Position numbers and translations under genes: made by a program. Below the pieces are notes generated by a model that was not told the DNA's origin, did no database searches, and saw only the letters and a list, made by a program, of their open reading frames with translations. From Bacteroidales bacterium (lineage in GTDB: Bacteria > Bacteroidota > Bacteroidia > Bacteroidales > UBA932): 64,000 nt of DNA. The DNA lies in NCBI GenBank assembly GCA_017437755.1, contig JAFRXI010000068.1, positions 32,266 to 96,265 on the forward strand. The letters run 5' to 3'. This document shows, piece by piece, positions 52,702 to 56,478 of the stretch (positions within the stretch are counted from its first letter, which is position 1; each line of letters begins with the position of its first letter).

Positions 52702-52705
52702 GCTG

Positions 52706-52778
52706 TGGTGTCGGCAGGAGTCGAACCGGCGACACATGGATTTTCAGTCCATTGCTCTACCACCTGAGCTACGACACC
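52706..52778 (-). tRNA. tRNA-Phe (GAA)
   Basis: The 73-nt minus-strand sequence folds as a standard tRNA: acceptor GGTGTCG/CGACACC with discriminator A, D-arm GCTCAGGTGGTAGAGC, anticodon loop CTGAAAA with anticodon GAA, and T-arm with GGTTCGACTCC. The 3' CCA is not encoded (the next bases are CAG). It has a consensus promoter 21 bases upstream and a terminator directly after. Confidence 0.96.
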
Positions 52779-52798
52779 GTTTTTCCCAAACGGGAATG

Positions 52799-52829
52799 CA
52801 AAGTTATTAAACTTTTGGTAGATTACAAA
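52799..52829 (-). promoter_or_regulatory. Promoter of tRNA-Phe
   Basis: On the minus strand TTTG (52826-52829) and TAACTTTG (52799-52806) are separated by 19 bases, a perfect Bacteroidota promoter, and the -7 box ends 20 bases before the tRNA 5' end. Confidence 0.8.
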
Positions 52830-52861: not shown

Positions 52862-54739
52862 ATGACCGCCCTGACATTCATATCGGTTATCGTCCCCCTC
52901 CGGCTCGCCTGGGAACCCTGCTACCACACCTCGGACCAAAGCATTTCCGTTGGTGACAGGGTAAGGGTATCCTTCTCCGGGCGGGAATACGTAGGTGTCG
53001 TCAGCGGCGTCGGAGTCACTCCGGACACCCCGGCTTCCAGAATCAAGGGCATACTGGGAAAGGCTGAGGACCTGGATCCGGTCGTCCCCGTTGAAATTGG
53101 GTTCTGGCGCAGCATCGCCTCATATTACCTTTGCACGGTGGGTGAAGTTTACAAGGCCGCCTACCCCTCGGCGATGGTTTCCAGGGAGGAACTTGAATCC
53201 AGGAAGGAATCGCGCCTGGAAGAAAGGATCCGGAAACGGGAGGATGCCCTGAATAGGGCCAGGAAAGAGTCGGTCAAGGAAAGGCTAACCGCAGAGATCC
53301 GGGACCTCAAGGCCATCCGGACAGGACCGGGCCTCCATTCCGGAATACCACGGCTGGATATCTCAAAGCCGCTTCAGAGGGCTTATGTTCAGGTCCAGTC
53401 GGCATTTACCGAAGCCAGGACTGCCCTCCTCCTGGGGCCTGACAGGCTTATGATATATCTGAAAGCCGCCTCGGACGTGCTCTCAAGCGGGCGCAGCGTA
53501 CTGATGCTCATCCCCGAGATCAACCTCGGGCGTCAATGGGAGAACAGGATAAGGGAATTTTTCCCGGAGCTTCTCATCTATCACTCCGGAGAGAGTCCTG
53601 TCAGCAGGGGTGAAGTGGCCGCAAGGGTCAGAAGCGGGGCTCCGGTGCTGGTGATGGGTACCAGGTCGTCCATCTTCCTACCCTTCAGGAACCTCGGCCT
53701 CGTGGTAGTGGAACAGGAACAGGACCCCTCGTTCAAACAGGACAATCCGTCGCCCAGGTACAATTCCAGGGACGCCTCCATGCTCCTTGCAAAAACGCAC
53801 GGTGCAAAGGTGATACTGGGGTCTGCCTCCCCGTCGCTTGAATCGGTATATAATTCAATATCAGGTAAATACCGTGAGGTCCGGACCACTTGGGAGAATC
53901 ATCCGGAACTGCCTGTGACGGTTGTGGACATAACGTCTGAACGGCGCAAGAGAGGCATGGTGGGAGCCTTGTCGGTCAAGTTGATGGAGAGCATGGCCGG
54001 CGTTCTGGAAGCAGGCCGGCAGGTCCTGCTGCTCTGTCCTCGGAGAACTATCCTCCAGGACGCCATCGGGGAGCAGATCCGGAACCTTTTCCCGGGGAGG
54101 AGCGTCGTCATCCTTGAAGGAGGAGTCACGCAGGCCAGGCAAAAGAGGATAATATCCGAATTCACCGCCGGGGAAACCGATATCCTGATAGGAACCCATA
54201 TGATGGCCAAGGGCCTGGACAGCAGGAATCTCGGCCTCATAGCACTGCTGGGGGCCGACAGCCTTTCCGCACAGGAAGATTTCAGGGCCGACGAAAGGGC
54301 TTTCCAGACAATCGGCCAGCTGAGGGAACGCGAATGGGCCCAGGGATGCTCCCTCATCGTCCAGACCGCCAGGGAAGGCCATCCCGTATTCAGCATGGAC
54401 GGGGACATAGTACAAAGGCTGCTCCAGGAAAGGAAGGCCGCCTCGCTCCCCCCATACACCCGGCAGGTGGACATAATAATGAAGGACACGTTCCCTGAAA
54501 GGCTTGCCAGACTCTCCAGGGAACTTCGCAGTTCCCTGCCCGTCCTTCCCGGGGCGGTCGTCACCGGGCCATACCGGCCCTCGGCGGCAAATGCGGCGTC
54601 GGACATGATGGTGATAGGGGTATTCCTGCCCAAAGACCGGAACCTCGCATCTTCAAAAAAGGCGCTGATGAAAGCGGCGGACACCTTCGGCATTGCCAGG
54701 AAATGGTCCTCGCACCTGTCCTTGGACGTAGATCCTTAA
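52862..54739 (+). CDS. PriA-like protein lacking helicase motifs and zinc module
   Basis: The 625-residue protein has the whole PriA scaffold: an N-terminal 3'-DNA-binding domain (SVIVPLRLAWEPCYHT..., VGDRVRVSFSGREYVGVV), two helicase lobes (LGSASPSLES, ILIGTHMMAKGLDSRNLGLIALLGAD, DFRADERAFQTIGQ) and a C-terminal domain (LPPYTRQVDIIMKD). But Walker A reads LLLGPDRLMIYL (about residue 189) instead of GxTGSGKT, the DEEH box reads EQEQ (about 283), and motif VI QVAGRAGR is replaced by QLREREWAQG (about 485). The eight-Cys zinc insertion is also missing. The frame is intact and GC-rich, so it is likely expressed. ATP hydrolysis and unwinding are not expected. It precedes parA by 45 bases. Confidence 0.85.
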   Translation: MTALTFISVIVPLRLAWEPCYHTSDQSISVGDRVRVSFSGREYVGVVSGVGVTPDTPASRIKGILGKAEDLDPVVPVEIGFWRSIASYYLCTVGEVYKAAYPSAMVSREELESRKESRLEERIRKREDALNRARKESVKERLTAEIRDLKAIRTGPGLHSGIPRLDISKPLQRAYVQVQSAFTEARTALLLGPDRLMIYLKAASDVLSSGRSVLMLIPEINLGRQWENRIREFFPELLIYHSGESPVSRGEVAARVRSGAPVLVMGTRSSIFLPFRNLGLVVVEQEQDPSFKQDNPSPRYNSRDASMLLAKTHGAKVILGSASPSLESVYNSISGKYREVRTTWENHPELPVTVVDITSERRKRGMVGALSVKLMESMAGVLEAGRQVLLLCPRRTILQDAIGEQIRNLFPGRSVVILEGGVTQARQKRIISEFTAGETDILIGTHMMAKGLDSRNLGLIALLGADSLSAQEDFRADERAFQTIGQLREREWAQGCSLIVQTAREGHPVFSMDGDIVQRLLQERKAASLPPYTRQVDIIMKDTFPERLARLSRELRSSLPVLPGAVVTGPYRPSAANAASDMMVIGVFLPKDRNLASSKKALMKAADTFGIARKWSSHLSLDVDP

Positions 54740-54784: not shown

Positions 54785-55561
54785 ATGGGAAAGATAATCG
54801 CCATAGCAAACCAGAAGGGCGGGGTTGGAAAGACCACAACCGCAATCAATCTGGCAGCCTCTTTGGCGGTGTTGGAAAAAAAGGTCCTCATCATTGATGC
54901 AGACCCTCAGGCCAACACCACCTCGGGACTCAATTTTTCCCCGGAAAACGACCAGAAAAGAACTCTGTACGAGGTACTTATAGGAAGCATACACGTTACC
55001 GACGCCCTGGTTCAGACCGAGCTGCAGAACCTCCATCTCATTCCCTCGCACATCAACCTCGTGGGGGCCGAGATAGAGATGCTCGACGCTCCTGACAGGG
55101 AGTCCGTCCTGAAGAACGTCCTTCGTCCGGTCAGGGATTCCTACGATTTCATAATCATCGACTGCTCCCCTTCCCTGGGCCTTATCACGGTCAACTGCCT
55201 GACTGCGGCCGACTCTGTAATAATCCCCGTCCAGCCGGAGTTCTTTGCGCTGGAAGGGCTGGGAAAGCTACTGCAGACCATACGCCTCGTGCAGGGCGGA
55301 GTCAATCCGGATCTCAGCATAGAAGGTTTTGTGGTGACAATGTTCGACGGAAGGACAAAGGTGCATACCCAGGTCGTCCACGAGCTCAGGGAGCATTTCA
55401 AGGACATGGTATTCGATACCATCATCCAGAGGAGCATCCGCCTGAGCGAAGCCCCGTCACACGGGAAACCCATCATCCTGCACGATGTAATGTGCAATGG
55501 TACAACCAATTATCTGAATCTCGCCAGGGAGGTCCTGGAAAAGAACCGTAACAAGTCATGA
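54785..55561 (+). CDS. parA: Chromosome-partitioning ATPase ParA (Soj)
   Basis: The 258-residue protein is a Walker-type ParA. The deviant Walker A NQKGGVGKTT is at residues 9-18 (signature Lys near 12), the A' motif IIDADPQANTTSGL near 39-52, and Walker B IIIDCSPSLG near 120. It binds nucleoid DNA as an ATP dimer and, with ParB, separates replicated chromosome origins. Length (about 255-260) is the chromosomal Soj type without the N-terminal helix-turn-helix of plasmid ParA. Its stop overlaps the parB ATG, so the two are coupled. No recognisable parS palindrome was found in this window. Confidence 0.95.
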   Translation: MGKIIAIANQKGGVGKTTTAINLAASLAVLEKKVLIIDADPQANTTSGLNFSPENDQKRTLYEVLIGSIHVTDALVQTELQNLHLIPSHINLVGAEIEMLDAPDRESVLKNVLRPVRDSYDFIIIDCSPSLGLITVNCLTAADSVIIPVQPEFFALEGLGKLLQTIRLVQGGVNPDLSIEGFVVTMFDGRTKVHTQVVHELREHFKDMVFDTIIQRSIRLSEAPSHGKPIILHDVMCNGTTNYLNLAREVLEKNRNKS

Positions 55562-56478
55562 CAGCAGGAAAACCCTCAAGGGGGCTCGGAAGGGGCCTCA
55601 GCGCAATACTTGGTGAAAGCACCGACATCTCAGGTCTCCGCAAGCCGGTGGGCTACGTGAACAAGGAGATCGCCGGCAGCCGTACCGGCCAGAACTCTTC
55701 CGACATATTCCGGATCCCGCTGGACAGGATAGAGCCGAATCCCTTCCAGCCAAGGACCACCTTCGACCGTGAAGCCCTGGAGGAGCTTGCCGGTTCCATC
55801 AGCACCTTCGGTCTCATCCAGCCCGTGACCGTCAGGAGAATCGACGGCGACCGTTACCAGATCATCAGCGGAGAGCGCCGTTTCAGGGCGTGCCGCATGG
55901 CCGGACTGGAGATGATTCCCGCCTACATCAGGGAGGCCGACAACCAGGGAATGCTGGAAATGGCCATTGTGGAGAATATCCAGAGGGAGAACCTCGACCC
56001 GATAGAAGTGGCCATGAGCTACAGGCGCCTCATCGAGGAATGCGGTCTCACTCAGGAGCAGATGGCTTCCAGGGTTGGACGCAAAAGGGCGTCCGTCACC
56101 AATTACCTGCGGCTCCTGAAGCTTCCGGCCAAGGTCCAGCACGACCTGAAGGTGGGCCTGATAAGCGTGGGGCACGCCAAGGTCCTCCTGGGCGTAGAAG
56201 ACCCTTCGGTACAGGAGGCCCTGTGCGATGCGGTGGTGAGGAACTCCCTGTCGGTGAGGCAGTTGGAAGAAAAGCTGGCAAGATTGTATTCCGCTCCTGC
56301 GCCTGCAGTGCAGCAGCCGCTTCCGGATGCCTATTACAAGGTACTGGAGCACATCGGGCGCTTCTTCGGTGACAACATATCGCTCAAGCGCTCCCCCACC
56401 GGGAAAGGCACCATCACCATCAGGTTCTCTTCCGATGAGGAAGTAGAGAAGTTCCTGAAAGCCCTCGACGAAAGATGA
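55558..56478 (+). CDS. parB: Chromosome-partitioning protein ParB
   Basis: The 306-residue protein has the ParB/Srx CTPase domain (IPLDRIEPNPFQPRTTFD near residue 60, GERRFRACRMAG near 107, ENIQRENLDPIEVA near 140). A central helix-turn-helix follows (LTQEQMASRVGRKRASVTNYLRLL, split across about 165-190), and then a C-terminal dimerisation segment. It binds parS sites, spreads as a clamp and stimulates ParA. The start overlaps parA (ATGA) and the stop overlaps the DUF5683 gene (ATGA), so partition and envelope genes share one transcript. Confidence 0.95.
   Translation: MTAGKPSRGLGRGLSAILGESTDISGLRKPVGYVNKEIAGSRTGQNSSDIFRIPLDRIEPNPFQPRTTFDREALEELAGSISTFGLIQPVTVRRIDGDRYQIISGERRFRACRMAGLEMIPAYIREADNQGMLEMAIVENIQRENLDPIEVAMSYRRLIEECGLTQEQMASRVGRKRASVTNYLRLLKLPAKVQHDLKVGLISVGHAKVLLGVEDPSVQEALCDAVVRNSLSVRQLEEKLARLYSAPAPAVQQPLPDAYYKVLEHIGRFFGDNISLKRSPTGKGTITIRFSSDEEVEKFLKALDER

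Follow-up and report, generated by a model that had tools for sequence, protein, structure and literature searches.

It is an open question why the PriA helicase is widely conserved, although E. coli can live without the helicase activity (PMC4504706). In PMC10175261, the domains of E. coli PriA are described as gripping all arms of the replication fork, with a loop of HD1 wedged in the fork junction. The cysteine-rich region pivots, which shapes a pore for the lagging strand and docks PriB; unwinding depends on the hairpin of this region, and DnaB loading was assayed with PriA carrying the Walker A substitution K230A (PMC10175261). A PriA without a working motor has been described from Deinococcus radiodurans; it has no measurable ATPase and negligible unwinding, binds ssDNA and forks, and was seen in a complex with DnaB (PMC4504706, Lopper et al. 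2015). Motifs I and II depart from the consensus across that phylum, with the Walker A lysine changed to arginine, and the substitution K230R abolishes the ATPase of E. coli PriA (PMC4504706).

Here, we analyzed a PriA-like gene in a 64,000-nucleotide stretch of DNA from an uncultured Bacteroidales bacterium (referred to below as the window). The gene begins with an ATG at 52862, its stop codon ends at 54739 on the plus strand, and a reading-frame check found 625 codons with no internal stop. The gene has a G+C content of 58.1%, compared to 50.7% for the window, and a GC3 of 0.70. The initial annotation was thus right to call this an intact, GC-rich frame. A frameshift or assembly artefact was ruled out, as many genomes carry the same form in an open frame. 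A tRNA-Phe (GAA) gene lies immediately upstream on the opposite strand (52705-52778, minus). A Bacteroidetes-type promoter pattern had no plus-strand match before the gene and one nearby match on the minus strand (52798-52829). The features of the locus are as follows.

52862..54739, plus strand: priA-like gene, catalytically degenerate, 625 amino acids (frame, profile match, and alignment)
52886..53167, plus strand: retained 3'-DNA-binding domain, PF17764, residues 9-102 (E 3.2e-14)
53174..53401, plus strand: charged linker, residues 105-180 (alignment)
53426..53452, plus strand: degenerate Walker A LLLGPDRLM, residues 189-197 (alignment)
53705..53773, plus strand: degenerate motif II VVEQEQ and retained loop DPSFKQDNPSPRYNSRD, residues 282-304 (alignment)
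54029..54049, plus strand: LLCPRRT, residues 390-396, followed in canonical PriA by the zinc block that is deleted here (alignment)
54182..54223, plus strand: motif V-like ILIGTHMMAKGLDS, residues 441-454 (alignment and pattern)
54278..54343, plus strand: retained DFRADERAFQ, residues 473-482, and degenerate motif VI QLREREWAQ, residues 486-494 (alignment)
54446..54736, plus strand: C-terminal region from LPPYTRQV, residues 529-536, to the terminal LDVDP, residues 621-625 (alignment)
54785..55561, plus strand: parA, the neighbour common to canonical PriA loci (synteny)
55558..56478, plus strand: parB (synteny)

A profile search places the window protein above the cut-off of TIGR00595, the NCBIfam model for PriA as a replication restart helicase (243.4 bits against 230.35, E 4e-72). 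The protein also matches solved PriA chains with E values of 8e-45 to 3e-44, and its likeness to PriA is therefore not due to chance. It falls below the much higher cut-offs of other PriA equivalog models of the PRK05580 type, for example with 261.8 against 813 bits. There is also weak similarity to the PRK14873 primosome models, which we take to be linked to actinobacteria. Actinobacterial PriA lacks detectable helicase motifs according to UniProt notes. The 3'-binding domain scores 53 bits against a cut-off of 22.7. The Pfam domain search did not detect PriA_C (PF18074) in the window protein, and both the domain search and the alignment show the zinc cysteine-rich region (PF18319) to be absent from it, while PF18319 is present in the canonical genus members G003 and G016.

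The alignment confirmed the motif losses that had been read from the letters. The Walker A site reads LLLGPDRLM where canonical members of the genus have GVTGSGKTE; it fails a GxxxxGKT/S test, its P-loop is three residues shorter in the alignment, and R195 occupies the position of the P-loop lysine. Motif II reads EQEQ (residues 284-287) instead of DEEH. Motif VI reads QLREREWAQ, compared to QFRGRSGRR in the canonical form, and fails the pattern QxxGRxGR. The zinc block with its eight cysteines is deleted, leaving 4 Cys in the whole protein. Motifs Ia (PEINLG), III (GSASPS), and V (GTHMMAKGLDS) are recognisable. Judged by its place behind motif II, the loop DPSFKQDNPSPRYNSRD is presumably the aromatic-rich loop. 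In comparison to PriA as modeled by TIGR00595, the window protein shares the order of parts, the 3'-binding domain, the loop after motif II, DFRxDE, PPYTR, and the terminal DVDP, but it is missing Walker A, DEEH, motif VI, and the zinc ribbon. Two order relatives that were tested carry roughly 90-115 residues more in the linker region, between the 3'-binding domain and the first helicase lobe, and by position the missing residues correspond to the winged-helix region. The linker is also short in the two canonical genus members tested (L083 and L087, against L014 and L024). The view that the PriA scaffold is kept end to end is therefore generous with regard to the zinc block, these linker residues, and the undetected PriA_C.

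The genome of the window belongs to a genus that we presume to be Candidatus Cryptobacteroides. We searched an even sample of 300 genomes of this genus with TIGR00595 and assigned classes from the best E values, with cuts at about 1e-60 and 1e-15. This gave 140 canonical genomes, 122 degenerate genomes, and 38 with neither, the last including PriA fragments at contig ends; a score is not by itself a sign of intact motifs, as proteins of family f85 and genome G577 (described below) reach 1e-124 without a Walker A. With completeness of at least 90% and contamination of at most 5% required, 118 genomes remain, of which 70 are canonical, 43 belong to the degenerate class (one of them, G148, an intermediate), and 5 are neither. 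With 38 of 300 genomes lacking a full PriA, 5 of them of this quality, PriA may be dispensable in some members of the genus.

The 143 open reading frames closed at both ends comprise 25 canonical, 117 degenerate, and 1 intermediate (G197). By pattern, all 25 canonical frames, drawn from the 140 canonical-class genomes, keep GKT/S, the zinc block, motif V, and motif VI, and all 117 degenerate frames are without GKT/S, motif VI, and the zinc block. We additionally viewed the canonical frames of G010, G014, G020, G068, and G002, the last in two pieces with Walker A on one. The motif V-like stretch is found by pattern only in the window copy among the 117 closed degenerate frames. These include two from G257, a single MAG, 7% contaminated and perhaps a mixed bin, with two different degenerate PriA genes (L100 and L216). 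In 16 aligned degenerate proteins, the P-loop is mostly three residues shorter, arginine stands at the lysine position in 12, as it does in the Deinococcus-Thermus pseudohelicases (PMC4504706), and DEEQ is kept at motif II in 7. The degenerate relatives that carry names (L133, L134, L136, and L150) are MAGs from uncultured Bacteroidales, and L150 is, by its title, a yak rumen genome.

Three frames of the degenerate class keep GKT, those of G148, G197, and G321, of which G148 and G321 run off the contig. The G197 protein (L323) keeps GKT and motif VI, has lost the zinc block, and has a broken motif V (IGTEMISGEFDF); that of G148 (L322), open at the 5' end, keeps GKT and has also lost the zinc block. 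These two intermediates suggest that the zinc block can be lost before the P-loop. Two further members of the class are fragments, one with canonical motifs V and VI (G181) and one without the Walker A part (G075). The five high-quality genomes with neither form are G022, G032, G180, G245, and G259, and G022 and G180 carry PriA fragments at contig ends. Mean genome size at 90% completeness or above is 2.26 Mb for 45 degenerate-class genomes and 2.49 Mb for 70 canonical-class genomes (Mann-Whitney p 0.0025), which is a hint only, as the sizes are rounded and uncorrected for kinship.

The window gene lies directly upstream of parAB, as had been stated: parA starts 45 bases past its stop codon, followed by parB. 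The genes parA-parB-DUF5683-mltD adjoin priA both in the window and at 11 of 14 canonical loci of the genus. At 10 of the 14, parA is downstream as in the window (G003, G013, G016, G017, G020, G024, G026, G029, G033, and G034), with a gap from priA to parA of about 1.1 kb in G024, G026, and G029. The eleventh, G005, has the same neighbours with priA inverted on the other side. The remaining loci have different neighbours (G014) or sit where the contig ends (G010 and G002b). Degenerate loci are more mixed. In a first set of 15, priA adjoins parA in inverted orientation in G019 and G028, and no parA was present in the 4-16 kb read at the other 13. In a second set, G230, G272, and nine group-A genomes adjoin parA, with priA inverted in G318 and G146, and parA does not adjoin priA at G035 (where a longer stretch was read), G250, G094, G148, and G197. 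In degenerate G638, parA is downstream of priA.

A search for a second PriA had been named beforehand as a check on the initial annotation, which offered either an ATP-independent paralogue beside a normal PriA or a lineage that restarts replication with a helicase-dead PriA. The profile search of the window's own genome, which is 85% complete, returned one PriA match, and the weaker matches were UvrB and RecG; no second PriA was found. The degenerate class was defined by the absence of a canonical-level match, and 43 of its 122 genomes reach at least 90% completeness with at most 5% contamination. Any genome carrying both forms would count as canonical class. Among the 140 canonical-class genomes, no degenerate-profile match was stronger than 1e-143, which leaves room there only for second copies with weak scores. 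The paralogue reading is therefore not supported by the window's own genome or by the degenerate class. Since canonical PriA of the genus mostly adjoins the same genes and the 85% complete genome shows no other PriA, the window gene looks like the PriA ortholog in place. The helicase-dead alternative is supported by this gene content and synteny, the part played in restart being a predicted one.

We then looked across the order at 294 genomes at least 85% complete. A PriA match with E < 1e-120 was found in 282, with motifs checked for a subset of relatives that were aligned and the remainder judged by score. The family alignment shows 18 order relatives that keep all motifs. Weaker matches, besides the window's genome, came from three members of family f85, a fragment in G528, and seven genomes with weak matches. 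One protein flagged by the pattern scan as having lost Walker A (L130) was rejected, as the alignment shows TASGKTE. In family f85, Walker A and motif VI are lost in all 30 proteins examined (L402, L406, L407, and L423-L449) from 32 genomes; the other two genomes, G615 and G619, have no locus. The first four zinc cysteines are shown for f85, and the whole block is present in three f85 proteins. In G577 (L397), from a sister genus in the same family as the window, Walker A reads NSSNFSGKN and motif VI is lost, with the whole zinc block kept (E 3.7e-123), and its congener G508 (L393) has a canonical PriA. The f85 and G577 proteins, from another family and another genus, thus resemble the window protein in losing Walker A and motif VI, but unlike it they keep zinc cysteines.

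To follow the history of the degenerate form, we built a marker tree from UvrB, ParA, and ParB of 31 genomes, one of them an outgroup (G295 is without UvrB and G024 has a piece of it). The window pairs with G230 (93/86), and both fall in a 15-row clade (100/100) whose members include the canonical genomes G306, G003, G034, and G005. The degenerate label requires at least 5 changes on this tree, 4 of them forced by well supported branches. A single degenerate clade is rejected by the marker genes (AU p 1.2e-44), and with it a single vertical origin. The PriA tree, calculated with motif columns removed, requires 2 changes and leaves a single clade of all degenerates unrejected (AU p 0.394). It puts the window, on an end branch of 1.09, in a supported 11-row degenerate clade (96/93) with long branches and marker-distant genomes. 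A FastTree of 153 rows also requires 2 changes, both forced, giving at least 2 origins by starred branches; it places the window beside group B with a support of 89, a placement made unsafe by long branches. G005 has a canonical PriA yet falls among group A by markers, which could mean either that the gene was regained or that losses were separate.

The trees can be reconciled if losses were more frequent than is visible in the PriA tree, or if degenerate alleles were passed on sideways. We consider it rather unlikely, but compatible with the mechanism proposed below, that the degenerate allele arose once or a few times and spread across the genus by horizontal transfer and recombination. The 2 changes and unrejected clade of the PriA tree, the grouping of the window with marker-distant genomes, and the 13 of 15 degenerate loci of the first set without parA in the stretch read all speak for such spread. 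However, the PriA tree may join long degenerate branches falsely, the markers reject one clade, and the larger FastTree needs at least 2 origins. Furthermore, the genes of the window, G230, G272, G638, and group A lie next to parA, as canonical PriA does, and the zinc-retaining proteins of f85 and G577 appear to stem from losses of their own. We favor recurrence on the basis of this common neighbourhood and these separate cases. Our tentative reading, which we hold with slightly less than even confidence, is that within one genus the PriA motor and the zinc-built ssDNA pore were lost together, several times and in place, leaving a minimal ATP-independent fork-recognition protein that would reload the replicative helicase without the cysteine-rich region or PriB, and that f85 and G577 lost the motor only.

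Selection on the degenerate form was measured with our own Nei-Gojobori script. Across 23 degenerate pairs dN/dS ranged from 0.060 to 0.273, and across 6 canonical pairs from 0.061 to 0.154. No relative in this comparison is more than 47% identical to the window copy, which shares 40-43% with G638 and is too diverged from all of them for a value of its own. Pooled by region over the 23 degenerate and 5 canonical pairs, motif II with its loop is lowest in both forms (0.044 degenerate, 0.023 canonical), and the DFRAD stretch is nearly equal (0.096 and 0.095). HD2 stands at 0.199 compared to 0.097, and the Walker A region at 0.164 compared to 0.118. The fork-contact stretch stays tight in the degenerates and the motor parts relax. 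Most of the residues that are invariant in 16 degenerates come from the 3'-binding domain, the motif II and loop stretch (E286, K292, P298, and R303), DFRxDE, and C-terminal positions; further ones run from E523-R524 to P530-P531, followed by R534, D622, D624, and P625. The protein has the marks of a pseudohelicase, with dead motifs in an intact gene under purifying selection, the selection being shown for the relatives and the window copy being intact.

We found no earlier report of a Bacteroidales PriA pseudohelicase in the open-access literature. The class itself is already known from Deinococcus; what is new is the combination of zinc loss and alternation with canonical PriA within one genus. 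Like the D. radiodurans protein (PMC4504706), the window protein has dead ATPase motifs. Compared to the departures in motifs I and II described for Deinococcus, it has a shortened P-loop and no longer carries motif VI or the zinc block, and other members of the same genus have a canonical PriA.

We think it probable that the window gene is the genome's own PriA turned pseudohelicase, and that it serves as an ATP-independent fork-recognition platform for reloading DnaB. We propose this because the fork-contact parts are kept, the motor and pore module are lost, and a PriA without ATPase still binds forks and DnaB (PMC4504706). PriA would have changed in place into a protein that neither hydrolyzes ATP nor unwinds DNA, a prediction based on the missing Walker A, motif II, motif VI, and zinc block. 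Abandoned forks and D-loops would be recognised through the retained 3'-binding domain, junction loop, and remains of the helicase lobes and C-terminal domain. This static platform could then recruit DnaB, either directly or through a loader, in the way that DnaB is bound by PriA of D. radiodurans. Loss of the cysteine-rich region should also have removed the strand-separating hairpin, the lagging-strand ssDNA pore, and the surface on which PriB docks in E. coli. Forks with a duplex lagging strand would thus have to be opened by another helicase or wait for exposed ssDNA.

Several observations stand against such a platform. In E. coli, DnaB is loaded via PriB docked on the cysteine-rich region; the window protein has no such region and would need another surface for DnaB, and the Deinococcus precedent may not cover a zinc-less form. 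PriA_C was not detected, and the rate of change in HD2 is higher than in the canonical form. Relatives retain part of motif II (DEEQ in 7 of 16), and the cut-offs of the other PriA equivalog models are missed. Finally, 38 of 300 genus genomes are without a full PriA, and the window's own genome is only 85% complete.

It is also conceivable, though improbable, that the protein has left replication restart and now binds forks or D-loops in recombination, chromosome partition, or transcription, with restart proceeding without PriA. The zinc platform that docks PriB in E. coli (PMC10175261) is missing, some genus members show no full PriA, and the gene sits beside parAB. However, canonical PriA also sits beside parAB, so this neighbourhood is inherited. 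The most conserved parts are the fork contacts of E. coli PriA, and the canonical and degenerate forms replace each other across the genus, both of which speak against this reading.

We regard a decaying relic heading toward a pseudogene as very unlikely. The window copy does sit on a long end branch, with low identity to the relatives compared and no measurable dN/dS, and a lone decaying copy under no selection had been named as a refuting outcome. Its 625 codons are nevertheless open despite this branch, and among the genus matches listed, the only internal stop is in G073, which is canonical-class. The values of 0.06-0.27 in relatives speak against decay, with the limit that they are not the window's own. 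Least credible is an ATPase kept alive by alternative catalytic residues, to which the arginine in 12 of 16 and DEEQ in 7 of 16 degenerates and the recognisable motifs Ia, III, and V of the window copy could point, as the P-loop is shortened in most degenerates, none of the 117 closed frames has an arginine-finger pattern at motif VI, and K230R abolishes the E. coli activity (PMC4504706).

The finding bears on PriA as a family. A genus in which 122 of 300 genomes score as degenerate and 140 of 300 as canonical, with rare intermediates, is a natural experiment on this protein. It points to the parts that selection guards without ATP, namely the loop after motif II, the 3'-binding domain, and the DFRADE stretch, and to those that it releases. 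Annotating Bacteroidales genes above the family cut-off as "replication restart helicase" can be an error. A PriA that has lost its motor and apparently stands alone in the genomes of many uncultured Bacteroidales suggests that this motor is dispensable.
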